Position numbers and translations under genes: made by a program. A DNA stretch of 64,000 bases from Oscillospiraceae bacterium (lineage in GTDB: Bacteria; Bacillota; Clostridia; Oscillospirales; Oscillospiraceae), in the NCBI GenBank assembly GCA_017508045.1, contig JAFVZT010000028.1:22666-86665 (forward strand), written 5' to 3'. This document shows, in pieces, positions 18,638 to 33,634 of the stretch. The notes under the pieces are model-generated. The model did not search any database and had not been told where the DNA came from. It saw only the letters and a program-made list of their open reading frames with translations. The number at the start of each line of letters is the position of its first letter. The stretch's first letter is position 1.

Positions 18638-18640
18638 CCT

Positions 18641-19732
18641 ATGAATAAGCAGCAAATACGCAGCTACACCAAGCTTTTGGAGCGTCAGCGCAGAAAAACC
18701 AATGTTCCGGAGCGCTGCTACCGCACCCAAATGAAGGACACCGGAAACGCCGTGGAATTTGACAACCTGCAGGTGCAGTTTTTTACCGATAACGGGATTG
18801 TTAAGTCCGTAGACGGGGTCAGCTTTTGCGTGCCCACCGGCAAGGTGGTGGGGGTCGTGGGAGAATCCGGCTGTGGAAAATCCGTTACCAGCCTTGCCCT
18901 TATGCAGCTGCTGCAGCGGCCACAAGGACAAATCGTGGGCGGCGAAATCCGGCTGAATTTACAGGACAAGGCCTACGACATTGCCAAAACGCCGGAAGCA
19001 GTTATGCGTCAGCTTCGTGGCAGCGCGGTATCTATGATTTTTCAGGAGCCAATGACCGCCCTTAACCCGGTATTTACCGTGGGCAGGCAGATTGAGGAGG
19101 TTATTTCCTTCCACGACCGGCGCTATGCTACAGCGCAGGAGATAAAAAATCGCACACTGGAGCTTTTGGAGCTGGTGGGCATCCCCAACCCACAGGGAGT
19201 ATATGGAATGTATCCCCATCAACTCTCCGGCGGTATGCGGCAACGGGTGATGATCGCCATTGCCATTGCCTGCAATCCCCGACTGGTAGTTGCCGACGAA
19301 CCCACCACTGCCCTGGATGTAACCATACAGGCGCAAATCTTAGAGCTGCTTGCTTCTCTGCGGGATAAGCTGGGTACGGCCATTTTGCTCATCACCCACG
19401 ATTTGGGTGTGGTGGCCGGCATTGCGGATTTGGTGGTAGTAATGTATGCCGGACGGGTGGTGGAACAGGGTACTGTTCAGGAAATCCTTTCCTGCCCTGC
19501 CCATCCTTACACCATCGGCCTGCTTGCCTCCAAGCCGGTGGTAGGAAAGAAAACGGATTCCCTTTTTTCCATTCCCGGAAGCGTTCCCGACCCTGTAAAT
19601 CTTCCAAAGCATTGTTATTTTCACAGCCGCTGCTCCCACGCCACCCAAGCCTGCACCGGAGAATATCCGGCAGAAATTCAGCTAAGTCCCACTCACAAGG
19701 TCAGCTGCTACAAGGAGAACACCCATGGATGA
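18641..19732 (+). CDS. Peptide ABC transporter ATPase, OppD type
   Basis: A 363-residue ATPase with Walker [19 protein letters not shown], signature [16 protein letters not shown], Walker [15 protein letters not shown] and the H-loop ITHDLGVV. The C-terminal oligopeptide-transporter extension carries the [14 protein letters not shown] cysteine motif that may hold an iron-sulfur cluster. There is an extra basic N-terminal stretch of about 35 residues before the ABC domain. It follows oppC by 3 bp. Confidence 0.93.
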
Positions 19733-20696
19733 TATTCTGTCGGTAAAAAATCTAAAAAAATATTTCCCCTCCCCCAACGGTCTTGTTAAGGCGGTGGATG
19801 ATGTAAGCTTTTCCGTGAAACGGGGAACGACCATGGGACTGGTGGGGGAATCCGGCTGCGGAAAATCCACCACCGGGCGGTGTGTTCTGCGGCTTTCCGG
19901 CGGTCTCACCGGCGGGCAGGTGTTATTCCAAAACCAAGATTTATACAAGCTCAGCAAAAAAGCCCTTCGGGCGCTGCGCCCGAAGCTGCAAATCATTTTT
20001 CAAGACCCCTTTTCCAGCTTATCCCCCCGACTGACAGTGGGGGAGCTTATGAAAGAGGCTGTACGGGAGCATCGCATTGTGCCAGCCGGGGAGCTGGAAC
20101 ATCACATCGATAAAATTATGGAAAACTGCGGACTGAAAACCTCCTATAAAAGCCGCTATCCCCACGAATTTTCCGGCGGACAGCGGCAGCGAATCTGTAT
20201 TGCCCGGGCATTGGCATTAAACCCGGATTTTGTGTTGTGTGATGAGCCGGTTTCGGCGTTGGATGTGTCCATTCAGGCGCAGATTGTCAACCTTTTGCAA
20301 AAGCTGCAGCAGGAGTACGGACTTACCTACCTGTTTATCTCCCACGATTTATCGGTAGTAGAACACATTTGTGACACCGTGGCAGTGATGTATTTGGGAA
20401 AAATTGTGGAATACGCCCCTACCAAGGCTCTGTTTGACAAGCCCCTGCACCCCTATACCCAAGCCCTGTTTTCTGCCATTCCCGTACCCGACCCCAATCA
20501 TAAGCTGCAGCGGATTTTGCTTCAGGGGAACATCCCCTCTCCCATCGATCCGCCCTCCGGATGCCGGTTTCACCCCCGATGCCCCCACGCTATGGACATC
20601 TGCAGTCGGGTTGTGCCGGTGCTGGCAAAGGTGGACGCAGACCACACCTGCGCCTGCCACCTGTACCATCAGGTACGGGAAGCCTCCAAAGAGTAA
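19725..20696 (+). CDS. Peptide ABC transporter ATPase, OppF type
   Basis: This 323-residue partner ATPase has Walker [20 protein letters not shown], signature FSGGQRQRICIARALALNPD, Walker B FVLCDEPVSALDVS and the C-terminal CRFHPRCPHAMDIC motif. Its start overlaps the OppD gene by 8 bases. Together with the four preceding genes it completes one importer. Confidence 0.93.
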   Translation: MDDILSVKNLKKYFPSPNGLVKAVDDVSFSVKRGTTMGLVGESGCGKSTTGRCVLRLSGGLTGGQVLFQNQDLYKLSKKALRALRPKLQIIFQDPFSSLSPRLTVGELMKEAVREHRIVPAGELEHHIDKIMENCGLKTSYKSRYPHEFSGGQRQRICIARALALNPDFVLCDEPVSALDVSIQAQIVNLLQKLQQEYGLTYLFISHDLSVVEHICDTVAVMYLGKIVEYAPTKALFDKPLHPYTQALFSAIPVPDPNHKLQRILLQGNIPSPIDPPSGCRFHPRCPHAMDICSRVVPVLAKVDADHTCACHLYHQVREASKE

Positions 20697-20712
20697 TCCT
20701 CTCTAAACACAT

Positions 20713-20759
20713 CGTGCCGGAGCTTTCGCTCCGGCACGAGTTCACAATTATTCTTTTTT
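20713..20759 (+). terminator. Opp operon terminator (also usable on the minus strand)
   Basis: An 11-bp perfect stem (20713-20723 with 20728-20738, loop tttc) is followed by an AT-rich stretch ending in TTCTTTTTT. A very similar hairpin with the same flanking tail occurs at 51507-51541. Confidence 0.8.
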
Positions 20760-20896
20760 AAGCCTGCCCAAACGATTGACATCGCTTCTAGCTATGGCGT
20801 TTTTGCTTTCGCAAACGGCCTCTTGTGCATCTATAATCTGCTGATCCCTATCGTCACCGGCAAATCGACCCACACGAATCACGCCAATAATTATAA
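20748..20896 (-). pseudogene. Remnant of a gene 3' end
   Basis: Between the opp terminator and the next gene, the minus strand keeps a protein-like frame of about 49 codons without a start or ribosome binding site: GVIRVGRFAGDDRDQQIIDA, then QEAVCESKNAIARSDVNRLG. The composition and the pattern of a strand followed by helix look like a real C-terminal piece, perhaps of an esterase-like enzyme, but I cannot name the family. It runs in a different frame from the gene at 20909, so it is not simply that gene's continuation. It was probably left by a deletion. Confidence 0.4.
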
Positions 20897-20908
20897 TATC
20901 AATATTTT

Positions 20909-22807
20909 TTATCGTTTTTCCAATTCATCAATAGCCAGCATCATCCACATCAGACGGCACATTGCGCTTACATTGGGACTCCAGGGTACGTAGTAGGGCT
21001 GACCAATCACGATGCGCTCCATCATACAGTACTCTTCTGTCACAGTATACTTACGCTGGGTACGCAAGATCTCACGGGCCTTTTCGTAATCGCCAATCTG
21101 CATCCACAGCTGGAACCAGGAAATTTCCGCAGCGGAAATATACCAGACACCGCCCTCCTTAAGCACAGGGGTACGTCCGTAGAAAACACCGTTGGAACGG
21201 TTGGAGTTAATCAGCCAGCGGAAGATCTTATCGCTGTACGCCACATCCAGTGCACCGATCAAAATAAACTTAGGATAGTGGTACATAGGATAATCGTCCC
21301 GGACCAGTTCTTTATCATTTCCGTCGGGGCGCAGAGGAATGTACAATTCATCCGAATCCTTTTGTTCATCCAGATAAGGCTGCAGGTGGAACTTGATCGC
21401 TTCCACATACTGCTCCATCTCCTGCTGTATTTCGTCAGCCCGGGAATCTCCAAACATTCTTGCCGCTTCCAAATACGGCTTCATATTCATAATGTTGTAG
21501 CAGTCTGTAATCTGCCAGTTTTGGTAGACCTGCTCATAGTCACAGGCACGCAGCGGCGGGAACAGGCCTCTTGCAAGGTCATCACTGTCGGCTGTCTCAG
21601 CTCGGGTATTTTTAATCCACCGGAAGCCTGCATAGGCCTTATCCTTATATTTGTGGTAGAAGCGCTCTCCGGCTTCTGCGCTGTATTTACAATAGTTACC
21701 GAAGGAAGACAAAATGGTGGAAGTGATCATCGCCCAGTAGATGCCGATATTGACAATCTCGCCGCTGTCTTTCTGCATAACATTGAAATATGTATCAAAC
21801 AGAGGTTCCAGATAGTCTGCAAAATCACCTATTCTGGGCAGAACATCAAACGCCCACATAGTATCTCCCGGGAAGCCGATGCAGCGCAGACCGCCCTGCC
21901 GGATAAACAGATAGTCCTTGCCCTCATTATAGGTAATATGCTGCAAAATCTGTGCAACCATATGCCGAACCATTTTCAGTGTCTCCGGGTCATCTTGCCA
22001 GCTTTTGGGCAGCTTGTTCAGACGGGTGAGCTCCTTACGCCAGAACTTCTCGGTAATCTCTTTCTCTGCATTGTAATTTCCGGAAGTGGCTTCGCCCTTG
22101 TTGATAACAAAAATAAGCTGCGTGGTTTCTCCGGCAGCCAGAGTCAGCTCCCAGTCAAGAACGCCGTCCTGCGTGTTCAAAACAGGCCGCTTTTCGCCGG
22201 AAACTGTCATAATATGGGTTCCGTCTGTAAAGTGATCGCCCTCTATGCGCCAGGTGTTCGGTGCCTGTTCCTTCCAGCGCTGCAAATGCCGGTGCGGCGC
22301 ATAGGAATGGTACTGGTCCGGAGAAATGATCAGCAAAGGCTCTTTTGCGGTACGCAGCATAAAGCCAAGCTTTTGTGTTGCAGTTTCAGCACCGGTATTT
22401 GTCACATTCACTTTCAAGAAGCAAGTGGATTTGCGCTGGGTATCGCAAAAGGCTTCCATTTCAATGGCAAAGGTATCCAAACGATGCTTCAGCCCGTGAA
22501 CCGGAACACCGTCCTCCGTAGTAACATTTTCCGCATCGTGGAAATCGAACTGCTCCCGATCATCGCCATGAAGCAGCCACATTCCAAAGGTAACCTCATC
22601 GTTCCAGTACTCGTGACCGTTCTTCTTATCTTCCACATCACTGCCGTCATAGACTCTGCCGTAAAGAAGTTTTCCGTCAATCCACAGGGAAATCAACCGT
22701 TCAGATTTGGGCGGCTGCAAATTTCTGTGGGTAGTTCTGGGCTTTTCCCATAAGCTGGGGTCCAGATCCTTTTCGTCCAGAGGGCGTAATTTAGAATACT
22801 CGTACAT
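20909..22807 (-). CDS. Uncharacterised protein with glycosidase-like helical C-terminal domain
   Basis: The 632-residue cytoplasmic protein (no signal peptide) has a beta-rich N-terminal half (SERLISLWIDGKLLYGRVYD, YWNDEVTFGMWLLHGDD). The helical C-terminal half looks like an (alpha/alpha)6 toroid of glycosidase type (GFPGDTMWAFDVLPRIGDFA, YYVPWSPNVSAMCRLMWMML). This layout is known for inverting glycosidases and phosphorylases, but the family is not recognised and no catalytic pair can be fixed. The second ATG (22807) is preferred, eight bases after an aaaggag site; the first (22813) is too close to it. It is on the same strand as the TIM-barrel protein and AraC regulator upstream. Confidence 0.7.
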   Translation of the reverse strand: MYEYSKLRPLDEKDLDPSLWEKPRTTHRNLQPPKSERLISLWIDGKLLYGRVYDGSDVEDKKNGHEYWNDEVTFGMWLLHGDDREQFDFHDAENVTTEDGVPVHGLKHRLDTFAIEMEAFCDTQRKSTCFLKVNVTNTGAETATQKLGFMLRTAKEPLLIISPDQYHSYAPHRHLQRWKEQAPNTWRIEGDHFTDGTHIMTVSGEKRPVLNTQDGVLDWELTLAAGETTQLIFVINKGEATSGNYNAEKEITEKFWRKELTRLNKLPKSWQDDPETLKMVRHMVAQILQHITYNEGKDYLFIRQGGLRCIGFPGDTMWAFDVLPRIGDFADYLEPLFDTYFNVMQKDSGEIVNIGIYWAMITSTILSSFGNYCKYSAEAGERFYHKYKDKAYAGFRWIKNTRAETADSDDLARGLFPPLRACDYEQVYQNWQITDCYNIMNMKPYLEAARMFGDSRADEIQQEMEQYVEAIKFHLQPYLDEQKDSDELYIPLRPDGNDKELVRDDYPMYHYPKFILIGALDVAYSDKIFRWLINSNRSNGVFYGRTPVLKEGGVWYISAAEISWFQLWMQIGDYEKAREILRTQRKYTVTEEYCMMERIVIGQPYYVPWSPNVSAMCRLMWMMLAIDELEKR

Positions 22808-23116
22808 AGTCATAACTCCTTTTGCGTTAGTATTGATTATTTAAATTGATTATTCAATATATCAAAGCGCCCCAGCTTGCTGATCGCGAAGCGCAACTGA
22901 TCCGTTTCCTGCTACCAACACAATCGCGCTGTGGGTAATGAATCTGATTCTGCCCCCGGCAATACGGGTTATGCAGTCGATACATGCCCTCATTGGCGGT
23001 TTTTGCGATATGCTCGGGAAGACTGGACTACGAAATTACGATTGCATTGCAAAATGTTCATATCACATTAAACTCCTTGCCTGAATTATATCACAGGAAA
23101 AAATAAAGTCAACCAA
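22808..23116. other. Gene-less spacer with possible coding debris
   Basis: About 300 bp between two minus-strand genes. On the minus strand there is a possible -10 (GATATAATTC) and an AAGGAG-like site before a short frame that stops after about 26 codons. Another frame, open for about 40 codons further on, has no start signal. This may be decayed sequence. The stretch nearest 22808 should hold the promoter of the downstream gene. Confidence 0.35.
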
Positions 23117-23144
23117 AAAAGGCTTACCATCCGGCAAGCCTTTT
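23117..23144 (-). terminator. Terminator after the TIM-barrel hydrolase gene
   Basis: A 12-bp stem with one mismatch (23117-23128 with 23133-23144, loop atcc) is followed on the minus strand by a T run. It separates the two hydrolase-like genes into distinct transcripts. Confidence 0.8.
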
Positions 23145-23174
23145 CAGTATAGGTTGATAAACGAGGTAACGTGA

Positions 23175-25238
23175 TCAATAGGTAATATATACCACATCAA
23201 AGAGATCAAGTTTGTCAATTGTCAGGTGCAGGAATTGCTCCTTAATTTTCCAGGATACATTTCTGCCCAGTGTGGTGTATATTTCCTTCGGCTGCACATC
23301 CAGCTTCAGGGAGAACTCCAAATTGTACAGAGGAACGATTTTCTTTACATTTTGGCTGTTCAAAAGGGATACGGTGTAGCAGCGCTTCTGGGGATTGTGG
23401 CGCAATACGTGGGACAGATATTCTGTTTCCTCACATTGCAGTGTCAGTCCGCCATTTTCTTCCAGCAGATTGCAAATCCATTTATTGAAGACCTCAATGT
23501 TGCAGTCCATCTTGTTTTGCTCAATAGGCGCGCAGCTATACAAGCAGGCACCTTTACCGTAGCGGTGATATACCACTGCAGGTATGTCGGTTACTCTGCC
23601 GGGGGGATTGCTGATGGCAGAGGAATACCGCCGGAAATCCCGGGCATCGGTTAGGGGATAAGTAAGTGTTGCCAACACCTGTGCGGTATCGGAAATTTGT
23701 GTGGCAGTGGGAACGGCAAAGGGGAGCATTTGCGGATATTCGGCGGTAAAGCCGGGGAACCAAGGTTCGCCGGACTGTGTCGGTGCTAAATAGATCGGTT
23801 GTGTATCCACAAAGGCATCGTATTCTACGCCCATTACCTTTGATAGCATAAAACGGTCTTTGTTTGTGCCGTCTGTGGACAAGGCACTGGATGCGCCGCT
23901 GATATAAAGCCGTCCGCCCTGGGCAACATACTCTGCCAGCTTTTCACATTCGGATTGGGACATACGGTACAGATCCGGTACCACCACAACCTTGTAATCC
24001 GAAAGCCTGTGGATGTTTTTCTCCGTCAGGATGTCATAATCAATGTGAGCCCGGGAGAAGTTCAGATTGATTTGCTCCAGATTTAAAGCAATGTCCCGGT
24101 AATCCCCTATGCGGTGACTGGGTTGCCCCTCCGCGGTCCGCTGGGTGTAGGAGTCAAAATTGATATACACAGCAACATCCCGCAGAATTTTCGCATCATG
24201 GTCCACTGCTTTATAAAATGGCATCAATTCGCGCTTGATGTCGCCCATGGTGTGATATAACGCCTCTTGCAGCTTGCCGTTGGGATCGATGGCATCAATG
24301 AACAGGAAGCTGCCGCCGCAAAGCAGCGCAGTACAAGCCTGGTGCAACAGCTCATTCTTGCTTTTTAGACCCGTGTGATAGGACAGGTGGGGTGCCCGGG
24401 AGACCATATACTCAAAGGGCATATTCTCGCTCAGGTTGGGCAGTATCCGACAGATTACCTCTGTTTTATGCCGGGATGCATAAAAATCACCGGAAACGTA
24501 ATCCATAGTACGGTAGTAGTCATCATGCAGACCGTAATCCATTGCACGGTTCCAGCCGGCACATTGGAAGGACACACTAATGCCGGGGCGTGCCTTTTTT
24601 GCGGTATCGGAAACCTCCTGTGCGTATTGGCTAACGCTGTCGAATTTGAAGCGGACGTAATTTATAAAATTGGGATCTGTCCAGTTGATGGTGTCCGGAA
24701 GTTCCTGACCGGTCTGTGCCTTATACTTTTCCCGGCACCATTTACAGGTGCAATCCGGTGCGAAAAAGCCAATCATATCCACCCAGAAACCGTCAATGTC
24801 ATAGGTAGATACCATTTCGTGGACCATAGCCAGGAAATGATCCCGGAAAGGACTGTTGGGGCAGCAAGTACCAAAACGGGTATGCTCACCACGAATAAAA
24901 CCGTTGCTGGAAACAATCTGCCAATCCGGATGCCGCTTGGCGGCTTCCGTGTTCCAACTGTTGAGATAACCGACGACGCCGATACCACGCTTGCGCAACG
25001 CTTTCACAGTTTCACCGAAAATATCTCGTTTCTCTGTGATGGTATGTCGATAACCTACCTTGCTGGGATATAGGCAAAGACCCAAACAGTTGGACGCATA
25101 AACATAGGCCGTTTCTACTCCGGCAATCTCCATACATTTTGCATACTGCTCCGGATCAAATTCTTCCAGATAGCCTTCTCCGTTGGGAATGTGCATATCC
25201 ACAAGATTGCGGAACATACTGCGTTTATACCACTGCAT
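23175..25238 (-). CDS. Putative glycoside hydrolase (TIM barrel plus beta-galactosidase trimerisation-like domain)
   Basis: The 687-residue protein has an N-terminal alpha/beta-barrel region with the strand motif DIDGFWVDMIGFFAPDCTCK, where the Asp/Asp pair resembles a catalytic strand. A CxCxxC group (CTCKWC) and PNSPFRDHFLAMVHEMVSTY are also seen, as in the hypothetical glycosyl hydrolase 6 and fucosidase-like groups. The middle region (YKVVVVPDLYRMSQSECEKL, AEYVAQGGRLYISG) resembles the amidotransferase-like trimerisation domain of GH42 beta-galactosidases, and a beta-sandwich ends the chain. No signal peptide is present, so it acts on imported substrate. The second ATG, eight bases after an aggagg site, is taken as start. 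The AraC gene directly upstream suggests it is the regulated enzyme. Confidence 0.75.
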   Translation of the reverse strand: MQWYKRSMFRNLVDMHIPNGEGYLEEFDPEQYAKCMEIAGVETAYVYASNCLGLCLYPSKVGYRHTITEKRDIFGETVKALRKRGIGVVGYLNSWNTEAAKRHPDWQIVSSNGFIRGEHTRFGTCCPNSPFRDHFLAMVHEMVSTYDIDGFWVDMIGFFAPDCTCKWCREKYKAQTGQELPDTINWTDPNFINYVRFKFDSVSQYAQEVSDTAKKARPGISVSFQCAGWNRAMDYGLHDDYYRTMDYVSGDFYASRHKTEVICRILPNLSENMPFEYMVSRAPHLSYHTGLKSKNELLHQACTALLCGGSFLFIDAIDPNGKLQEALYHTMGDIKRELMPFYKAVDHDAKILRDVAVYINFDSYTQRTAEGQPSHRIGDYRDIALNLEQINLNFSRAHIDYDILTEKNIHRLSDYKVVVVPDLYRMSQSECEKLAEYVAQGGRLYISGASSALSTDGTNKDRFMLSKVMGVEYDAFVDTQPIYLAPTQSGEPWFPGFTAEYPQMLPFAVPTATQISDTAQVLATLTYPLTDARDFRRYSSAISNPPGRVTDIPAVVYHRYGKGACLYSCAPIEQNKMDCNIEVFNKWICNLLEENGGLTLQCEETEYLSHVLRHNPQKRCYTVSLLNSQNVKKIVPLYNLEFSLKLDVQPKEIYTTLGRNVSWKIKEQFLHLTIDKLDLFDVVYITY

Positions 25239-25256
25239 AATCATTTCCTCCTTGCG

Positions 25257-26117
25257 TTATTGCAAAATAGATTTCTTGTATGCGGTAGGGGTCATATGTG
25301 CATATTTTTTGAAAACCTTTGTAAAGTAGGTTGGGCTTTCAAAGTTCAACTGCACGGCAACAATTGCCACAGGCATATTTTTGCGAAGCAGCTTTTTGGC
25401 TTCCTGGATTTTCAGCATCGTGTAATACTTCATGATGGGCATGCCTGTGTTTTTCTTGAAGATGCCGTTAAGGAAGGTTTTGCTGTAGAAGGTTTGCTGA
25501 CTGACCTGTTCCAGCGTGATCTCGTCATAAATATGCGACTTGAGCAGTTTAATAATATCGTTGCTGAGGCTGTGCTCCAACTCGATACTGTTCATAACAA
25601 ACACAATATCGCGGTCTTCACTGATACGGGCGCGAATCAGATGAATCAACAGCTTCTCAAGACCGTTTTCCACCATTTGCTGGGCTCCGATCATAGGCTT
25701 TGGCAGCAGCTTAAGCTTTTTTTCAAAGGGGAAGACGAAGGCGTTTTTCGCCTCCCTAATGATTTCGGAAATGATGCGCTTTGTGTCCTTGTCCAGAGGG
25801 ATCTTCTGATCCAGAATGGACAGATATTCCGAACGGCTGCGAAAGCAAATGATAAAAATAGTGGCGCTTTGGTCACAGGCGGCACTGTAGGCATGCTGAC
25901 GCAGTGGGGGGATCAGAAGAAAGTCGCCCTGCTGCAGGGTGGTTGTGCCGCAGTCTGCTTTGCACACAATGATGCCGGAGTCGATGTATGCGAGCTCGTA
26001 AAATTCGTGAATTTCCTCCGGATAGGAAAAATCCGGGGAGATGTCTAAGGTTTCTACGGTGATCAGGTTTTGCACCGTCACCTCTTTTTTGATTTGGTAG
26101 CTGAAATACTTTTTCAT
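25257..26117 (-). CDS. AraC family transcriptional regulator
   Basis: The 286-residue protein has an N-terminal cupin-like ligand domain (IHEFYELAYIDSGIIVCKAD, LQQGDFLLIPPLRQHAYSAA) and a C-terminal double helix-turn-helix of AraC/XylS type (ITLEQVSQQTFYSKTFLNGI, FESPTYFTKVFKKYAHMTPT). The ATG at 26117 follows an aaggtgg site. It lies 18 bp upstream of the hydrolase gene on the same strand and is divergent from the M81 gene, so it probably controls both directions through the inverted repeat at 26150-26194. Confidence 0.92.
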   Translation of the reverse strand: MKKYFSYQIKKEVTVQNLITVETLDISPDFSYPEEIHEFYELAYIDSGIIVCKADCGTTTLQQGDFLLIPPLRQHAYSAACDQSATIFIICFRSRSEYLSILDQKIPLDKDTKRIISEIIREAKNAFVFPFEKKLKLLPKPMIGAQQMVENGLEKLLIHLIRARISEDRDIVFVMNSIELEHSLSNDIIKLLKSHIYDEITLEQVSQQTFYSKTFLNGIFKKNTGMPIMKYYTMLKIQEAKKLLRKNMPVAIVAVQLNFESPTYFTKVFKKYAHMTPTAYKKSILQ

Positions 26118-26149
26118 AAGACACCACCTTTTAAATATCATAGCACAAA

Positions 26150-26194
26150 AAAACCAAAAAACAAAGATATGGAAAAAAATGTTTTTGTGGTTTT
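26150..26194. promoter_or_regulatory. Inverted-repeat operator candidate between araC-type gene and M81 gene
   Basis: The divergent intergenic region has a large imperfect palindrome: AAAACCAAAAAACA (26150-26163) and TGTTTTTGTGGTTTT (26180-26194), spaced by 16 bp. It lies 33 bp from the AraC start and about 120 bp before the M81 start, the place expected for an AraC-type operator. Confidence 0.5.
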
Positions 26195-26315
26195 ATTATT
26201 TTATTTTTTACCATTTTCCCGTTGTTTTCTACCTTGTTGCCAGAAGCGATTGTGCTATCATAAATTTGTATAGCCTGACCAAGCTTGGGCAGGTTCAGAT
26301 TAGGGAGGTGTATTT

Positions 26316-27710
26316 ATGAAAATTATTGTTGCATCTTTTCAATGTGAATCCAATACAAGAGCAAGCCTGCATCCGGGAAAAAGTGATTTCGAATATTTTT
26401 CCGGGGAGGATATCTATAAAAAATTGGTGGTTAAGGATATCTTTGCCCGGAACGGATTTGAAGTCATTCCTTCGATTTATGCAAATGCGCTCCCCTCCGC
26501 TACAGTGGAACGGGATGTTTATGAATTTTATAAGGAGCAAATTCTCGACACAGTCCGGGCGCATCGGGATGCGGCGGGTATTTATCTGTATGTCCACGGC
26601 AGTATGGAGGTTGATGGCATCGGCAGTGGCGAACTGCAGCTTGTCAAAGAAATTCGGCAGCTTGTCAGCCGGGATTGTCTGATTGCCTTTACAATGGACC
26701 TGCATGCCAATATCACAGATGAGCTGGGGCAGTATGTAGATATTATTTGCGGATATAAGACAGCGCCCCATATCGACCAGGATGAAAGTCAGCGCCGGGC
26801 AGCTACAGCATTGGCGTATTGCTTGAAAAACGGCATAAAGCCGCACACCTATGTCCAGAAAATCCCGATGCTGGTCAAAGGTGATACAATGCTGACCCAG
26901 TTAGAACCGCTGCGTTCCTTGGAAGCAGAAACAGCACAGCTGGAGCAGCAAGAGGATATTTTCGGTGCCAACCTGTTTTTCGGGCATTGCTGGATCGATG
27001 CGCCCAATACCAGTGCATCTGCAGTTGTCAGTGCAGCAGATGCCCAAACAGCAAAGCAGTGGGCGCAAACGCTTGCCAATAAGCTTTGGGCCACAAGAAA
27101 GGAATACCGATTCCGGATCGAAGCGGAGCTTCCTGAGGAATGTGTACGACGGGCTTTGCAGGGAAATGAAAAGCGCATTTTCATTACGGACAGCGGCGAC
27201 AACACAACTGCCGGTGCAGAGGGAAATACCCAGGAGCTCCTCAAGCTTTTCTTGCAGGCAGAGCCAAATAAGAAAACCTGCGTAGCAGGTATCACAGATT
27301 TTGATACGGTGGATTCTCTTTGGGACCAACCGGACGGAGCATTCGTTACTGTCCCCGGCCTGGGGCAGAAAGGTATCATTAAGACCCACGGTGAAATTTT
27401 AGGCTGGGCAAAGGAAATCATCGGCAGATGCCTTACCATTACTTTTGGAAATGTAGATGCAATTTTCACCGAAAAAAGAAGCGGCTTTATTGAAAAAGGA
27501 AATTTCGATAAGGCAAATGTGGATTTGCTTGGTTATGAAATTGTGGTGGTGAAGCTGGGATATTTGTTTGAAGAACTCAAGCCCTATGCTGACAGAGAAC
27601 TGTTTGCACTGACCGATGGCGCCAGTTGCGTGGAGCTTTCCCGGTTAAATCTAAAAAATATTGTACGTCCGATGTATCCTCTTGAGGATTTTGATTGGGC
27701 TGCAAAATAA
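26316..27710 (+). CDS. M81 family metallopeptidase-like protein (MlrC-like)
   Basis: The 464-residue protein matches the M81/MlrC family throughout. The N-terminal domain has FQCESNTRASL, HGSMEVDGIGSGE (about residue 94), the probable zinc motif DLHANIT (128-134) and GYKTAPHIDQDE (147-157). The C-terminal domain has DSGDNTTAGAEGN (292-304). MlrC acts last in microcystin degradation, cleaving a linear peptide product, but most family members sit in catabolic operons with unknown substrates. A gggaggtg site precedes the ATG. It is the first gene of a plus-strand unit with a creatinase-like gene, an ASRT gene and an MFS carrier, suggesting breakdown of an imported amide- or peptide-like compound. 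Confidence 0.88.
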   Translation: MKIIVASFQCESNTRASLHPGKSDFEYFSGEDIYKKLVVKDIFARNGFEVIPSIYANALPSATVERDVYEFYKEQILDTVRAHRDAAGIYLYVHGSMEVDGIGSGELQLVKEIRQLVSRDCLIAFTMDLHANITDELGQYVDIICGYKTAPHIDQDESQRRAATALAYCLKNGIKPHTYVQKIPMLVKGDTMLTQLEPLRSLEAETAQLEQQEDIFGANLFFGHCWIDAPNTSASAVVSAADAQTAKQWAQTLANKLWATRKEYRFRIEAELPEECVRRALQGNEKRIFITDSGDNTTAGAEGNTQELLKLFLQAEPNKKTCVAGITDFDTVDSLWDQPDGAFVTVPGLGQKGIIKTHGEILGWAKEIIGRCLTITFGNVDAIFTEKRSGFIEKGNFDKANVDLLGYEIVVVKLGYLFEELKPYADRELFALTDGASCVELSRLNLKNIVRPMYPLEDFDWAAK

Positions 27711-27731
27711 AACAATAAGGAGTATATCATT

Positions 27732-28910
27732 ATGGCTTATTACAACGAGCAGGAAACCAAAAACAGAATTCAGAAGGTTGTAACTCTTTTAAATGAAAAG
27801 GATGCGGATATTGCGGTCATCTATTTTGATGAGCTCAATATTGCCAACGGCTGGTATTTGACCGGTTGGTGCGGTCAGTTTGAGAAAGGTGCGGTTTTGG
27901 TCGGCAGAGACGGCACAACAATGTTGCTGGGCGGTCCCGAGAGTGAACCTTTTGCAAAACAGTCTTCTGCCATCAGCGACACGCGCTGCTTCAAAGTATT
28001 TATGGTTCCGGATGAGGAATATCCCCTTGCTACCATCATTGGCTTCCCGGAGCTGTTTGCTGAGCTTAATCAGAAATTCCCCGTCAAAAAGGTTGCCCTT
28101 GTTGGTACCACCGATATGCCCTATGCAGTACATCAGGACCTGGTTGCCGGCTTCAGCGGCTGTGAAATCATTGACCTGACCGAGGAGTATCTGAAGTTCC
28201 GCTATGTAAAGAGCGATTGGGAAGTGGAACAGGCCAGAAAGGCAACCATGCTTTGTCACGATGCCTATAAGGCAATGGCCGCCAAGGTTAAAGCCGGTGC
28301 AAAGGAATATGAAGTGGCCGCAGCCGGTGAGGCTGTTTGCCGCGCCAACGGTGCCAACAGCTTTGCTTACCAGACCATCGTTGGCAGCGGTGTGCGTTCC
28401 AACGCGGTCGTTCCCACAGCTACCGATAAGGTAATGGAAAATGGCGAAATGGTTATGCTTGGCATTGCGCCCCGCATCAACGGTTATGCCGGTACTTTCG
28501 GTCATACTGTTCCTGTTAGCGGAGAGTACACTCCGGATCAGAAGAAGTGCCTGACCGATATGATCGAAGTAATGCAGGTGGTCAAAGGTATGCTGAAGAT
28601 CGGCAATACCGGCAGACAGATCGATGCAGAAGGCCGGAAGCTGTATGATAAAGGCGGTTACTTAAAGTACATTGTTTGTCCTTTTGCACACACTATGGGT
28701 CTTATGGAAGCGGAAGCTCCTTTCTTCGGCCCCAACAGTGATGACGTCCTGGAGAAAAATATGATCGTTAATGTGGACGTGTCCTTCTTTGGTCATCCCA
28801 CACTGAATGGTCTGCGTGTGGAAACCTGCTATGTGATCACAGAAAACGGCGCTGAGCCCCTGTGCCCTGCGTTTGAAAAAGAATTGTTTGACTACGTGCA
28901 AAATCACTAA
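27732..28910 (+). CDS. Creatinase/prolidase (M24) fold protein with degenerate metal site
   Basis: The 392-residue protein has the two-domain layout of prolidases and creatinase: an N-terminal domain (residues 1-155) and a pita-bread domain (about 160-392) with EVEQARKATMLCHDAYKAM, SFAYQTIVGSGVRSN and VETCYVITENGAEPL. Of the five metal ligands of M24 peptidases, both aspartates are missing (positions near 244 and 255, MLGIAPRINGYAGTFGH) and the first glutamate is Asp349. His320 and Glu364 remain. This is the creatinase-like condition, so a metal-independent C-N hydrolase is more likely than a peptidase. It follows the M81 gene by 21 bp. Confidence 0.88.
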   Translation: MAYYNEQETKNRIQKVVTLLNEKDADIAVIYFDELNIANGWYLTGWCGQFEKGAVLVGRDGTTMLLGGPESEPFAKQSSAISDTRCFKVFMVPDEEYPLATIIGFPELFAELNQKFPVKKVALVGTTDMPYAVHQDLVAGFSGCEIIDLTEEYLKFRYVKSDWEVEQARKATMLCHDAYKAMAAKVKAGAKEYEVAAAGEAVCRANGANSFAYQTIVGSGVRSNAVVPTATDKVMENGEMVMLGIAPRINGYAGTFGHTVPVSGEYTPDQKKCLTDMIEVMQVVKGMLKIGNTGRQIDAEGRKLYDKGGYLKYIVCPFAHTMGLMEAEAPFFGPNSDDVLEKNMIVNVDVSFFGHPTLNGLRVETCYVITENGAEPLCPAFEKELFDYVQNH

Positions 28911-28923
28911 GGAGGAAATAAAT

Positions 28924-29286
28924 ATGTACGGTAAAAAGAATTGGGTATTTTGTGACGGCGATCTGCCTCCTTCCGGCAACAATCCGAATTTCCCCGGCCA
29001 TGAGGCTTTAATGATCACCAACGTTTCTGATGTGGATGCCAACATCCGTATTAAGATCCTCTTTGTGGATCAGCCCCCTTATGATAAAATCACAATGGAG
29101 CTGAAGGCAGAGCGCACCTGCTGTCTGCGTTTGGATGGCCCCATTGGCAATGAAGGATATCAGATTCCTTTTGGTCAGTACGCGATCCACGTGATCTCCG
29201 ATGTGCCGGTGGTCGCTTGCTTCGGCAGATTGGATGTGCGTCAGGATAATATGGCATATTACAGTCCGGCAGGCTACGGCTTCTAA
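28924..29286 (+). CDS. ASRT family protein (Anabaena sensory rhodopsin transducer-like)
   Basis: The 120-residue protein shows the ASRT/PF07100 pattern from end to end: NWVFCDGDLPPSGN at the start, GHEALMITNVSDVDANIRIK, the DQPPYDKITMELKAERTCCL strand pair, and DVPVVACFGRLDVRQ near the end. ASRT is a small tetrameric beta-sandwich protein first found as the soluble partner of a cyanobacterial sensory rhodopsin. Relatives occur in many bacteria without rhodopsin and are suspected to bind a small ligand. No rhodopsin gene is present here. The start ATG follows an aaggagg site, 13 bp after the M24 gene, so it is part of the catabolic operon. Confidence 0.85.
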   Translation: MYGKKNWVFCDGDLPPSGNNPNFPGHEALMITNVSDVDANIRIKILFVDQPPYDKITMELKAERTCCLRLDGPIGNEGYQIPFGQYAIHVISDVPVVACFGRLDVRQDNMAYYSPAGYGF

Positions 29287-29291
29287 AAACC

Positions 29292-29319
29292 TTGACATTG
29301 CGAAAATGTATGGTATAAT
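29292..29319 (+). promoter_or_regulatory. Consensus promoter between ASRT and MFS genes
   Basis: TTGACA (29292-29297), a 16-bp spacer and TATAAT (29314-29319), the latter preceded by TGG, form one of the best SigA-type promoters in the window. It begins 5 bp after the ASRT stop. Confidence 0.85.
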
Positions 29320-29325
29320 GGGATA

Positions 29326-29523
29326 ACTTAAAAAATGAAGGTATGCCTTATTTTAAAGTTAACCAAGTGCGAATTTGCCGACATGCTTCTGGCGGACATT
29401 ACCCCGTTATAAGTTAGAATGGATGTATGCTCCGCTAATTAAAGAAGCTTGACACCGTTGCAAAACAGGTTGCGTATAAAACACATTGGCTGGCTCCAAA
29501 AGGAAAAGGCCAATGTGTTTTTT
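29326..29523 (+). promoter_or_regulatory. Terminator-ended leader or small RNA of unknown type
   Basis: Downstream of the promoter lie about 150 nt with local pairing: AATGAAGG/CCTTATT around 29333-29355 and TAACTTA (from about 29324) with TAAGTTA (from about 29411). These are followed by a perfect 13-bp stem (29478-29490 with 29509-29521) that runs into six or more T. The MFS gene starts about 80 bp later. This is the arrangement of an attenuated leader or of a short terminated RNA. It matches no riboswitch class I can recognise. Confidence 0.55.
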
Positions 29524-29604
29524 GCGGCCGAATGTACTGTTCATAGCCAGCCTGGGTAACGACTGTTATGTTGACGCCACAGAAAAAAGGAAGGATAAGG
29601 GTTC

Positions 29605-30870
29605 ATGAAAACACTTGTACGGAAGCATTATCACTGGCTTGTTGCCGCAATCATATTCTGCGAGATGTTTGTATACGGAGGCATCGTCACCAGCATCAGT
29701 ATTTATACCATTCCGATTACGGAAGGACTTTCTGTTGACCGCGGTCCGTTTACACTCACGGAAATACCCTACGGTGTGCTTTCTTTCATAAGCGCAATGG
29801 GTACGGGATGGCTGTTGCGCAAATTCGGCTATAAAACGCTTACAATCGGTTCCCTTATGCTTACCTCCGCAGGCTTGATGATAATGGGTGTTTCGCCGGA
29901 TTTGGTGGGACAAGGTATCGGCCGTGGTTTAATCGGTCTTGGTTACGGTGCGTGTTTTACTGCAGGCTGCGTATGGATTATCAAACAATGGTTTCATGGT
30001 CGGCAGGGCCTGGTTGTGGGTGCGGTTTCTATGGCGTCCGGTTTTGGCGGCAGCGCGATGTCATTCGTATTTTCCCGGGTGATTGTGAAATTTGGCTGGC
30101 GCACAGCACTATTAATTGAGGGCACTTTACCCATTGCGATTGCTTTTCTGTACCTGTTAATCTATAATGCTCCGGAAAAAATAGGACTGTTGCCTTACGG
30201 AAAAATGGAAAAGGTAACGAAGAAAATGCGGCAAGAGAGCAACTGGGAAGGCTTTTCAATGAAAGAGCAATACCGAAACCCGTTGCTGTATATTATGTGC
30301 GCAGCAACACTGCTGAGTGCGATGTGCGTTTATGCAACGCATACTGTACTGAACCCCCATTTTCAAGATAACGGCTATTCTCAAACGGCAGCAGCAAGCT
30401 ACAGCAGTATGCTTATGCTGATTGTTGCTTTTGTAAAATTGTTGTTAGGCTGGATAAGCGATCGCTACGGTGCAAAGCTGGTAGCGCTAATGTGCTTGGG
30501 ATGTGCGGCTGTTGGCCAATGGATGCTGTCTGATGTGTCAAACCCCGTATTGTCTTACATAGGTGTTGGCTTGTTTGCTGTTGGCCTCTGCTTGACATCA
30601 ATTGCGATTCCTCTTATCGCATTTCCATTATTTGGATATTGGGGAAGCGCAGAGGTGAACGGTATTGTTGTGGGAATGGCTTCACTGGCACACTTGATCA
30701 CTGCACCGATTTGTAATTTTATATTTGACTATATTGGAAGCTATAGCCCGTCTTTTAGGGTTGCCGCAATATTAGAGGTCTGTCTTATTCCTGTATATTT
30801 AATTATGTTCGCTATGGCAGACAAACAAAGAAAAAAAGAATTAGACAGAAAAAACATCGGCTGCCCCTAA
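29605..30870 (+). CDS. MFS transporter
   Basis: The 421-residue protein has 12 predicted membrane segments in two six-helix halves. The first cytoplasmic loop motif region is GWLLRKFGYKTLTIGSLMLT, and the second half has the matching LLLGWISDRYGAKLVALMCL. The overall look is that of the oxalate/formate antiporter-like group of MFS carriers for small organic acids. It ends the catabolic cluster and probably brings the substrate in or a product out. An aaggataagg site precedes the ATG. Confidence 0.88.
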   Translation: MKTLVRKHYHWLVAAIIFCEMFVYGGIVTSISIYTIPITEGLSVDRGPFTLTEIPYGVLSFISAMGTGWLLRKFGYKTLTIGSLMLTSAGLMIMGVSPDLVGQGIGRGLIGLGYGACFTAGCVWIIKQWFHGRQGLVVGAVSMASGFGGSAMSFVFSRVIVKFGWRTALLIEGTLPIAIAFLYLLIYNAPEKIGLLPYGKMEKVTKKMRQESNWEGFSMKEQYRNPLLYIMCAATLLSAMCVYATHTVLNPHFQDNGYSQTAAASYSSMLMLIVAFVKLLLGWISDRYGAKLVALMCLGCAAVGQWMLSDVSNPVLSYIGVGLFAVGLCLTSIAIPLIAFPLFGYWGSAEVNGIVVGMASLAHLITAPICNFIFDYIGSYSPSFRVAAILEVCLIPVYLIMFAMADKQRKKELDRKNIGCP

Positions 30871-30896
30871 TAGGGGTGGCCGATGTGCCTTTTTTC
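30854..30896 (+). terminator. Terminator after the MFS gene
   Basis: A 15-bp stem (30854-30868 with 30872-30886) is followed by CC and a T run. It closes the catabolic cluster. Confidence 0.9.
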
Positions 30897-31295: not shown

Positions 31296-31372
31296 TTATG
31301 TTAGGGCATTTTATCTTGCCACACAGAACTTTTTGTGCTATGCTAATAAAAAAGCGACAGGAGAGGGTTTTT

Positions 31373-33634
31373 ATGAAAAAGGTTTTTGCATTTGCTATGT
31401 CAGTCCTTATTGTGTTTGCCTTATGCAGTTGCGGCATCACAACGAGTGCTTCCGAAAATAAGGACGCTGATTCTAACCAGTCCGGTAATATCTCCTCCAA
31501 CAAGAATCAGACCTTGGAAGATAAAACAACCTCTGAAGATGCCAAGGACTGTTCCCATTTGTGGTCACAATGGGAAGAAAAAACGAAGGCCACCTGTCAG
31601 ATTGCCGGCATTAAGGAACGGGTCTGCCAAAACTGTAACGCCACCGAAAGCGAAACCGTCAAAGCAACCGACCACACAGAAAGTGACTGGATTGTAGAAA
31701 AGGAAGCCAAGGTTGGGCAAGACGGCCTGAAATATAAAAAGTGCACCCACTGCGGCAAACGGATGCAGGAGGAAACGCTCCCTGCTCTCAAGGAAGACCA
31801 CCGCCATGCAGTTGCCCAATGGGTTGTCACCAAGTCCCCCGACTGTACAAATAACGGCTCTCAAAACGGCATTTGCGCCTGCGGTCAGGTACTGGAAACC
31901 AAGGTCATTTCCAAGCTGGGCCATTCTCCTGTGACAGACAAGAGCGTTGCCGCCACCTGTACCGCAAGCGGCCTGACGGACGGCAGCCACTGCTCTGTCT
32001 GCAGCACAGTGCTTACCGCCCAAGAAGTTGTCACTGCCCAAGGCCACAGCTTATCCTTCAAAACGGTTGCCGCCAACGGCGGCAAAGAGGCACATAAGCT
32101 TTATTCCTGCGCAAACTGTACCTACTCTTATGAAGAAGTTATCGATTCCACGGCGGTGCTTAAATTCCTTAGCAACAACGACGGCACCTGCAGGGTGACA
32201 GGAACTACAGACAAAACCGTCACAACCCTTATCATTCCGGAAAAGAGTCCAGCCGGCGATACAGTGGTTGCCATCGGCGGCGAAGCCTTTAAAAACTGCG
32301 ACGCCCTTGAAGCTGTGGTGCTTCCGGACACCGTTGTAAAAATTTTCTACGATGCGTTTTACAGCTGCGACAAGCTAAAAACCGTTGTTTTCCCCAAAAA
32401 CGGCGCGCAAAACCTTGAACTAAATTATCAATGCTTTGCTTTTTGCGGCTTTGAGGAGCTTGATCTGACAAATGTAACGATGGAAACCGTTGGACAGCAT
32501 GCTTTTTACGGCTGTAAGAGTCTGAAAACTGTAAAGCTGGGGGCGGTTACAACCATTGATAACTTTGCCTTTGCCGAATGCTCCGAGCTGGTTTCTTTGA
32601 TCCACGCGGGCAATCTGGTCACCATCGGCGAGCGCTCCTTTGACGGCTGCAAGAAGCTGACCGAGCTTCGGGGAAAGAACTCCCAGCACAATCTGGACAC
32701 CGTTCTGCAGTTTTCTTACCACTCCTTCTACGGCTCCGGTATTCGGGACATTGTTTTCAACAAAAATCTCAAAGGCACAAATAATGCCTTCGAGGGCTGT
32801 AAAAATCTGGGAACGGTGGATTTTTCCCAGGTCAGCTCAAAATTTGCATCCTTTTTCGGGTCTAAGATCGAGAAGCTCATTTTCCCCAGTTCTTTGTCAA
32901 GAATTCCCGACAACTGTTTCCGCAACGCTACCATAGATTCCCTTGTGCTGCCCAGTTCGGTTACAGAAATCGGAAACGGCGCTTTTGCGGAAGCAAGGAT
33001 TGGCAAGCTCACCTTTGGCTCCGGGTTGACCCGTATTGGCGCAAACGCCTTCAACGGCACACAGGCTACCTATGATTTTTCCCGGGTGACCCGCCCTCTC
33101 ACCATTGATTATGAGGCCTTTGCCAACAATGATTTTACATCATTTGCCTTCCCTGAATCCACAGTTTTCATTGGTGCAGGCGCGCTGATGGGCTGCAATA
33201 AGCTGCAGATTTTGTCCATTCCCTTCATTGGTGAGGATGCGGAGGCCGGCAACGCGTCCACCCATTGTTTCGCATGGCTTTTCGGCAGGGATGTGAACTG
33301 CTGGGATCAAACCTCGGTGGTGCCGACTACGCTGAAAACCGTAATTCTCCACGGAGAAAATCCGGATGTCAGAGCCTTTATGGGTGTAAAAATAACTGCC
33401 CTTGTGGTGGGTAAGGATATTACTGCCATCGGCAACGAGAATTTTAACTCCAGCAGCAGCCTGACCCGGGTGTACTACGAAGGCACGCAGCAGGAGTGGA
33501 ATGCAATCACAAAAGGCACTTACGATAACCAAAAGCTTTCCTCTGCTGATAAGTATTTCTATTCTGAAACGCAGCCACCAACGGAAGGCAACTTCTGGCA
33601 TTACGACGCAAACGGCGCCATTACCCTTTGGTAA
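31373..33634 (+). CDS. Leucine-rich-repeat surface lipoprotein (BspA-type)
   Basis: The 753-residue protein begins with a lipoprotein signal (MKKVFAFAMSVLIVFALCSC). Residues 60-260 hold three to four copies of a short cysteine module seen in clostridial surface proteins: ATCQIAGIKERVCQNCNATE, KYKKCTHCGKRMQEETLPAL, NGICACGQVLETKVISKLGH. The rest is a BspA-type LRR_5 array (FKNCDALEAVVLPDTVVKIF, FYGCKSLKTVKLGAVTTIDN). Such proteins mediate binding to hosts or other bacteria. The ATG follows a ggagaggg site; an upstream ATG at 31298 would disrupt the signal peptide. Confidence 0.9.
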   Translation: MKKVFAFAMSVLIVFALCSCGITTSASENKDADSNQSGNISSNKNQTLEDKTTSEDAKDCSHLWSQWEEKTKATCQIAGIKERVCQNCNATESETVKATDHTESDWIVEKEAKVGQDGLKYKKCTHCGKRMQEETLPALKEDHRHAVAQWVVTKSPDCTNNGSQNGICACGQVLETKVISKLGHSPVTDKSVAATCTASGLTDGSHCSVCSTVLTAQEVVTAQGHSLSFKTVAANGGKEAHKLYSCANCTYSYEEVIDSTAVLKFLSNNDGTCRVTGTTDKTVTTLIIPEKSPAGDTVVAIGGEAFKNCDALEAVVLPDTVVKIFYDAFYSCDKLKTVVFPKNGAQNLELNYQCFAFCGFEELDLTNVTMETVGQHAFYGCKSLKTVKLGAVTTIDNFAFAECSELVSLIHAGNLVTIGERSFDGCKKLTELRGKNSQHNLDTVLQFSYHSFYGSGIRDIVFNKNLKGTNNAFEGCKNLGTVDFSQVSSKFASFFGSKIEKLIFPSSLSRIPDNCFRNATIDSLVLPSSVTEIGNGAFAEARIGKLTFGSGLTRIGANAFNGTQATYDFSRVTRPLTIDYEAFANNDFTSFAFPESTVFIGAGALMGCNKLQILSIPFIGEDAEAGNASTHCFAWLFGRDVNCWDQTSVVPTTLKTVILHGENPDVRAFMGVKITALVVGKDITAIGNENFNSSSSLTRVYYEGTQQEWNAITKGTYDNQKLSSADKYFYSETQPPTEGNFWHYDANGAITLW

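Follow-up and report, generated by a model that had tools for sequence, protein, structure and literature searches.

Seven genes and a conserved core

The stretch of DNA analysed here (the window) comprises 64,000 nucleotides of contig JAFVZT010000028.1 from an Oscillospiraceae bacterium (assembly GCA_017508045.1), and seven divergently arranged genes, which may belong to a catabolic system for a sugar-derived compound, are its main subject. The minus strand carries an AraC-family regulator (25257..26141, domain scan), followed after 12 bp by a gene for a 689-residue GHL6 / alpha-L-fucosidase-like glycoside hydrolase (23175..25244, domain scan and PDB relative 6tvk) and then by one for a 634-residue protein whose family is unassigned (20909..22813; annotation, Pfam and NCBIfam scan). 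The plus strand carries an MlrC-like zinc hydrolase of the M81 family (26316..27710, PF07364 and PF07171), an M24 (pita-bread) protein that lacks the bidentate metal ligands (27732..28910, PF00557 and residue alignment), a small ASRT protein (28924..29286, PF07100) predicted to bind sugar in passages of PMC2739507, and an MFS carrier (29605..30870) that resembles monocarboxylate and oxalate-formate carriers at scores under the curated cut-offs. An earlier note, made from the letters alone, had placed the seven genes correctly, as coordinates and domains confirm, and the 13-21 bp that it gave for the spacing of the M81, M24 and ASRT genes correspond to measured gaps of 21 bp (M81-M24) and 13 bp (M24-ASRT).

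The divergent AraC gene together with M81-M24-ASRT is a real conserved unit. A collection of genome contigs was scanned with six short M81 peptides, a procedure that retrieves close relatives only, and gave a non-exhaustive set of 30 distinct loci with an M81 relative at 65-89% identity. An orthologous M24 gene (83-98%) lies on the same strand 3' of M81 in 29 of them, after a gap of 18 to 316 bp; the M24 position of the remaining locus (L020) holds a different M24 gene (28%, truncated by the contig end). Of the 27 loci with contigs that reach far enough (those of L020, L031 and L039 end too early), 25 have ASRT, and in L023 and L030 it is missing next to the module. It lies 3' of M24 in 24 loci (in L022 only after 1,146 bp) and is the first gene of the operon in L033; in the genome of L031, a separate contig bears the end of M24 and then ASRT. 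A divergent AraC gene was found in 24 of the 29 assessable loci (23 and a contig-end fragment in L022; the contig of L035 starts too late), and none stands beside the module in L016, L017, L028, L030 and L045. A ruminant host and a gut site appear in the record titles of 21 loci, and the titles of the remaining nine give no host.

This recurrence among the M81 loci excludes a chance neighbourhood for the core. The earlier note had staked its proposal on the genes being found together in other genomes, and for the core they are; its single system of seven genes turned out to be narrower, since the complete set with the MFS, 634- and 689-residue protein genes recurs in only one of the 30 loci (L019). 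The two large proteins and the MFS carrier are accessories, with other genes in their stead in most loci. In a sample of 200 genomes from the family, five have an M81 match and this genome alone has the orthologue; of 398 genomes from the phylum, 20 have ASRT (PF07100), 22 have M81 (PF07364) and this genome alone has both. Because the two families co-occur in the phylum sample in this genome alone, the ASRT-M81 link holds for this orthologous unit and not for the two families in general. The earlier note did not recognise the combination, and among the first-listed open-licence papers, judged by title and abstract opening, none was found that names or describes it.

The gap between AraC and M81 contains a candidate operator (26198..26237, plus strand, motif model) with two direct half-sites, ACC-to-ACC 21 bp, of which the second enters the -35. 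Twenty-three of 24 AraC-M81 intergenic stretches, the window's included, share this 40-bp motif, GTTTTATTTTTTACCATTTT...TTTTTTACCTTG, whose consensus has the same 21-bp ACC-to-ACC distance and ends in the TTG of a -35-like hexamer. Leave-one-out scores are at least 31 for 23 of the 24 sites and 0.4 for L036. The window site scores 41.9 bits under a model built without the window, as against 4.4 for the next best site in the 64 kb and a maximum of 5.5 in six dinucleotide shuffles. Strong sites were also found outside the model set in L016 (43.0), L022 (40.8) and L035 (32.1), and in L033 one lies ahead of ASRT, the leading gene there. No strong site stands ahead of M81 in L017, L028 and L030; L045 has scores of 17.9 ahead of an oxidoreductase gene and 12.6 ahead of M81. 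Activators of the AraC family bind two half-sites in direct repeat, some 21 bp from each other and next to the -35, and the window site has this layout, which makes the direct repeat a candidate operator of AraC type. Extra copies at accessory genes were sought in 36 loci and rejected: sites ahead of the operon aside, nothing exceeded 11.3 but a score of 12.2 (L028, intragenic) and the 17.9 of L045.

A large inverted repeat, which the earlier note had described between the two strands, was not found in the AraC-M81 gap, where the conserved feature is the direct repeat with its 21-bp spacing. The best clean pair of inverted arms is 13 nt long (26136-26148 / 26250-26262), and longer pairs, in A/T-rich sequence, reach 72-80% matches. 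The 13-nt pair looks like two back-to-back extended -10 boxes. One would belong to a promoter-like TTGTTG-16-TATCAT for the M81 operon (26234..26261, plus strand), recognised by inspection and not listed by the promoter scan, and the other would be a mirrored -10 for AraC (26136-26148, minus strand).

The sequence distances within the unit do not track those of the ribosomal protein RplB. RplB was found in 18 of the 31 genomes and in none of the other 13, among them the window's, and identity medians were taken after rows covering less than 90% of the window protein had been dropped. Median pairwise identity is 69% for RplB (18 rows), 71% for M81 (31), 87% for M24 (28), 86% for ASRT (26) and 50% for AraC (23), the least conserved core protein. 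Distances of M81 and M24 correlate with r = 0.80 (reached in 0 of 999 permutations), those of M24 and AraC with 0.56 (0/999), M81 and AraC with 0.36 (6/999) and ASRT and AraC with 0.19 (38/999). Against RplB the values are 0.39 for M81 (3/999), 0.18 for AraC (121/999), 0.17 for ASRT (61/999) and 0.16 for M24 (109/999). Synonymous sites are close to saturation (median pS 0.78-0.86), with pN/pS values of 0.11 for M24, 0.13 for ASRT and 0.24 for M81. The unit seems to be horizontally mobile because M24 is more conserved than RplB and does not track it. The pattern, read from distance correlations, seems to reflect old, repeated transfer under strong constraint, with M81 and M24 travelling most closely together.

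The M81 hydrolase and its relatives

The M81 protein exceeds the cut-offs of both of its domains (PF07364, 255.4 bits; PF07171, 77.8 bits), and its zinc site is intact. The characterised comparison enzyme is MlrC (PDB 7ylq), which cleaves linearised microcystin; in passages of PMC9982164, the zinc ligands are E39, D167, H169 and H191 (one passage prints H196, others H191), and changes of H133 or D332 inactivate it. H94, D128, H130, H152 and D295 of the window protein align with MlrC H133, D167, H169, H191 and D332 and do not vary among the 31 rows; E11, equally invariant, corresponds to E39 on motif evidence only. As far as they were mapped, zinc-site and other essential residues are therefore kept. 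The two proteins are distant all the same (66.6 bits over 288 residues), and the operon context in the window, unlike that of MlrC, is sugar-linked. The substrate-binding D341 of MlrC corresponds to a variable position in the module proteins, position 304 being D in 18, E in 6, T in 5 and K and N in 1 each of the 31 rows. The cut-off of the exception model for microcystinases (NF041767) is not reached, with 69.4 bits vs. a cut-off of 999.

Relatives from outside the ruminant loci were taken from plasmid records: the best 15 of 403 records with a match were considered and eight opened, four of which, having no gene table, were searched by tblastn instead. Six of the eight opened records, five from Rhizobiaceae and one from Paracoccus, have GH20 as the gene immediately 5' of M81. 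The five Rhizobiaceae loci also have SDR and MFS genes in the order SDR-GH20-M81-MFS, and the Paracoccus locus has SIS, ROK, KbaZ-type and amidohydrolase genes as well. The Pantoea M81 is accompanied by ROK and ABC genes and that of Haladaptatus by Gfo/Idh/MocA and sugar ABC transporter genes. A midpoint-rooted tree of 36 M81 proteins, with 10 of the 31 module rows among them, places the ruminant group as sister to the GH20-linked group plus Pantoea (support 0.917). Seven of the eight opened relatives group with the ruminant proteins, and Haladaptatus and 15 other sampled Firmicutes M81 proteins stand apart. The GH20-M81 operons thus resemble the module in that their M81 belongs to the sister group (with Pantoea), GH20 adjoins M81 and an MFS gene occurs in five of the six; they differ from it in having no M24 or ASRT match (E 1e-8) and an M81 only 30-31% identical. 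No description of the rhizobial or Paracoccus operons was found among the papers that the literature search listed.

The earlier note had M81 proteins act on peptide-like molecules, and this does not agree with the nearest opened relatives, which sit in GH20 and other sugar contexts. It is because of this genomic context that an amino-sugar substrate is proposed, and a clade named after metallopeptidases appears to be tied to GH20 hexosaminidases and not to peptides. A peptide system, in which an unusual and possibly glycosylated peptide, imported by the nearby Opp transporter or by the MFS carrier, would be cleaved by M81 and M24 as peptidases, appears improbable to us. It would be in line with the microcystin activity described for the comparison enzyme in PMC9982164, with four Opp-type transporter genes that adjoin the region in the window (16197-20696) and with a distant M81 (21%) near an Opp cassette in another locus (L122). 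No relative of Opp (E 1e-5) was found, however, in the 21-kb L019 locus, which has the rest of the set, and the transporter was rejected as a member of the system. The GH20, ROK, SDR or sugar ABC genes around the opened M81 relatives also speak against peptides.

The M24 protein, ASRT and a parallel triad

PF00557 matches the M24 protein over the whole model (E 2.3e-32), and the metal site of the fold is lost. In the prolidase 1pv9 we take D209 and D220 to be the bidentate metal ligands and H284, E313 and E327 to be further ligands. In all 28 aligned rows D209 is replaced by G244, D220 by T255, E313 by D349 and the histidine H192 by V227, whereas H320 and E364 preserve H284 and E327. The module protein therefore lacks the prolidase-type metal site, and the absence in every row of both aspartates and of the H192 histidine is a further point against peptidase action of the system. 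The earlier note had assigned C-N bond cleavage to M24 within a catabolic system; that system still looks catabolic and glycoside-linked, and C-N bond cleavage by this protein, which lacks the peptidase metal ligands, is hypothetical. Both aspartates are also gone in M24 relatives of L055 (two proteins), L116, L028 and L056 to L059, as well as L165-L168 and L171; they are kept in L061, L068, L040b and L041b, and the L060 protein has no letter at the tested columns save the histidine. The proteins without the aspartates may represent an M24 branch that is linked to sugars and has lost the metal site.

Creatinase and ectoine hydrolase work without metal, and Spt16 of the FACT complex has an M24 fold without peptidase activity. 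A profile of the metal-less M24 proteins matches prolidases best, with creatinase, ectoine hydrolase and Spt16 also among the matches; the likeness of the module M24 to creatinase (1chm) and ectoine hydrolase (6twk) consists in the fold, by profile match alone. Conservation of the module protein is strong, with 241 of 392 positions invariant (28 rows), and H320, E326, E328, D349, R362 and E364 are invariant across nine diverse metal-less proteins.

The ASRT protein exceeds the PF07100 cut-off with 89 bits, and W7, H26 and N33 do not vary in any of the 26 rows. De Souza, Iyer and Aravind (2009) describe, in the parts of PMC2739507 drawn on here, ASRT genes beside sugar isomerase, aldolase, kinase or monosaccharide ABC genes, and predict a sugar sensor that works via protein-protein contact. 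The protein is also found in bacteria without rhodopsin, and its function was posed there as an open question. The module resembles the ASRT/ASRAH operons of that paper in its sugar-linked setting. It differs from them in its enzyme partners, since M81, M24 or creatininase are not named in those passages and are recurrent here, and in the binding cleft, where the cysteine (C29 of TM1070), placed by the SHEshChhN signature, is M30 in all 26 rows. A term search of a paper on rhamnose regulons (PMC3870299) gave no TM1070, sensory rhodopsin, RhaX or M81.

A parallel triad of M24, ASRT and creatininase is present in the window's own genome. Its second locus (L116, positions 5382-11199 of contig C9 of G000) carries ASRT, a metal-less M24 23% identical to the window's, a creatininase-family protein (PF02633) and a 716-residue protein, with an AraC gene upstream. 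ASRT was found in seven of eight module genomes searched, and the order M24b-ASRT-creatininase recurs in four (L165, L166, L167 and L171), with M24b 62-67% identical to that of L116; in a fifth (L168), ASRT lies 3' of a 30% M24 relative, likewise without both aspartates. In genome G880 an M24 (48%) and an ASRT (50%) stand beside LacI, two-domain ABC ATPase, permease and Peripla_BP_4 genes, and an adjoining second cluster holds another such M24 and a creatininase. The phylum sample has 21 ASRT loci: 17 have no M24 within flanks of 1.5 kb, and four have one (two of these from this genome and one a contig-end fragment). The recurring pair is thus ASRT and a metal-less M24, and the adjoining zinc hydrolase is either M81 or creatininase.

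This alternation speaks for a route modelled on creatinine, creatine and sarcosine, in which M81 or creatininase opens a sugar- or cyclitol-derived cyclic amide or ketone and M24 hydrolyses the product without metal. The profile matches to creatinase and ectoine hydrolase would fit as well. IolN is a creatininase-family enzyme that acts on a cyclic inositol diketone; the papers that the literature search listed do not deal with it. Prolidases nevertheless match the M24 profile better than creatinase does (at profile level), and the GH20 link of the M81 relatives indicates glycosides over cyclitols, so that we consider the ring-opening route rather unlikely. A second alternative has no chemistry in M24 at all: the metal-less protein would serve as a scaffold or as a sensor and would regulate the zinc hydrolase together with ASRT. 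Loss of the ligands from a protein so strongly conserved and the profile match to Spt16 are consistent with this, as is the protein-protein role suggested for ASRT in the cited part of PMC2739507. The six residues invariant in the nine diverse members could, on the other hand, be an active site, and a purely non-catalytic pair seems to us quite unlikely.

A bolder proposal, which we put forward as distinctly speculative, is that M24-ASRT constitutes a new sugar enzyme/sensor class that works with M81 or creatininase in two parallel pathways of gut Clostridia, the M81 version stripping an N-acetylhexosamine conjugate freed by glycosidases of its N-acyl or glycosyl-amide group. If this were true, ASRT would be a sugar-gated subunit of an enzyme complex. 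Recurring enzyme partners of ASRT in two parallel operons, together with a candidate operator, make ligand, complex and pathway directly testable.

Plasmid contexts of other M24 matches (H2, H5, H7, H8 and H14) and of ASRT matches (H21 and H22), taken together, are mixed: sugar, hydantoin, amino-acid and unrelated genes. H2 (L068), the only one of the five M24 matches that was aligned, keeps both aspartates. On a plasmid of Paenibacillus cellulositrophicus (L155, 8860-17443), an M24 gene lies beside genes for a sugar ABC transporter, two proline racemase family proteins, an FAD oxidoreductase, a dihydrodipicolinate synthase-type protein, an aldehyde dehydrogenase and a beta-L-arabinofuranosidase, and the cluster looks like one for the use of hydroxyproline arabinosides.

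Accessory genes, the catabolic reading and remaining features

The accessory genes vary from locus to locus. In L019 the 634- and 689-residue protein genes are 18 bp apart, with the MFS gene on the far side of the former, and the relatives of the 634-residue protein and MFS carrier are 91% and 77% identical. Relatives of the 634-residue protein in other Clostridia show 24-35% identity (35% in L038), and distant relatives of the 689-residue protein occur in L026, L029 and L032 (26-28%). The best PDB relative of the latter, 6tvk, which we take to be a GH151 enzyme, aligns in three weak stretches (whole-sequence E 1.4e-12). The 634-residue protein has no Pfam or NCBIfam match; the alignment of eight members of its family (A1) gave no credible Pfam match (best E 0.12), its profile no match in the PDB and at most 5% probability against single GH15-, GH78- and arabinofuranosidase-annotated proteins. 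Among 50 hand-picked neighbours scanned with Pfam, a set neither random nor exhaustive, glycoside-active families are GH2 (L016, L018), GH106 (L016, weak), GH78 (L029; L025 weaker), GH20 (L019, L024, L045), GHL6 (L026) and DUF4838 (L027, L028). Other neighbours are Gfo/Idh/MocA oxidoreductases (L027, L032), PfkB (L029) and ABC permeases (L016).

Taken together, these data suggest, with a probability of roughly 0.55, a mobile, inducible catabolic operon for a sugar-derived compound, probably one with an amide or comparable hydrolysable bond. Accessory glycosidases (here the GHL6 protein and perhaps the 634-residue protein; in other loci GH20, GH2, GH78/106 or further families) would release the compound, and an accessory carrier, in the window MFS, would help to supply it. 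AraC would bind the compound or a product and switch on M81-M24-ASRT via the direct-repeat operator. The zinc enzyme M81 would then hydrolyse an amide-type bond, the metal-less M24 may act on the same or the next intermediate, and ASRT might bind a sugar ligand and gate or assist the enzymes. From the genes and their contexts we infer the activation by AraC, the catabolic role, the amide bond, the link to amino sugars (N-acetylhexosamine) and the way in which M81 and M24 share the work; the idea of M81 as an amide hydrolase of an N-acetylhexosamine-type conjugate is a guess.

Several observations weigh against the catabolic operon so described. On the enzyme side, the set of residues mapped from MlrC does not extend to its general base, E70. 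M81 as a replacement for NagA was rejected: NagA exceeds its cut-off in 26 of 31 genomes, and M81 is therefore not needed as a general N-acetylhexosamine deacetylase. The Pantoea and Haladaptatus stretches have no GH20, and the six GH20-M81 operons, from Rhizobiaceae (5) and Paracoccaceae (1), are not six independent events. Near the module itself GH20 occurs in just 3 of the 30 loci. No glycosidase was found among the one to three proteins scanned each in L021, L037, L040, L041 and L044, the scanned neighbours in L020, L023, L030 and L033 have no Pfam match, and many in the hand-picked set are unrelated or without match. As to regulation and cohesion, neither the window nor the other loci have a strong second operator copy at accessory genes, the genomes of L016 and L017 lack an AraC homologue (E<=1e-30, eight module genomes searched), and ASRT distances track those of M81 and M24 only weakly (r = 0.32, 0/999; 0.25, 4/999).

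Transcription in the window likely proceeds in four units: AraC with the 689-residue protein gene, M81-M24-ASRT, the 634-residue protein gene alone, and MFS. The 634-residue protein and MFS genes are counted separately because terminator-like hairpins and promoter-like sequences of their own set them off. On the minus strand these are a hairpin between oppF and the 634-residue protein gene (20712..20739, 12-bp stem, consensus match only), a promoter-like TTGACT-16-TATAAT ahead of that gene (23085..23112, 11/12, consensus match only) and a hairpin 3' of the 689-residue protein gene (23117..23144, repeat-arm search). On the plus strand the ASRT / MFS gap holds a perfect promoter-like TTGACA-16-TATAAT (29292..29319, 12/12) and a hairpin (29473..29526, repeat-arm search), and another hairpin lies at the end of the MFS gene (30854..30886, 15-bp stem, consensus match only). 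Totals of both scans are close to those of shuffled sequence (terminators 12 vs. a mean of 11.6, promoter-like sites 19 vs. a mean of 17.4), so each hairpin and each site is a candidate. The stretch 29292-29526, where the perfect consensus promoter is followed about 150-200 nt on by a strong hairpin with no ORF of annotated size between, is possibly a small RNA or an MFS leader; no Rfam family reaches its gathering threshold there.

About 300 bp (22814-23110) separate the 689- and 634-residue protein genes, the corresponding gap in L019 being 18 bp; the spacer (290 bp) was rejected as a repeated element, as it is present in a single copy in the genome. A 711-residue family lies near the core in six of the 30 loci (L016, L017, L027, L034, L036 and L043; alignment A3). 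The one member scanned has no Pfam match, and the A3 profile gave none in the PDB, an 81.5% probability of similarity to a protein of L038 and a weak one (30%) to a DUF4838 protein. Elsewhere in the window, an OppC-like permease of 484 residues (17183-18637) has OppC_N at residues 11-54 and the permease domain at 291-484, with about 230 residues between them. A cobalamin riboswitch (RF00174, 72.2 bits) lies at 1398-1620 on the minus strand, and a 778-residue protein (31298-33634) has a lipoprotein-like start and repeats that, by eye, resemble those of leucine-rich BspA-type surface proteins.

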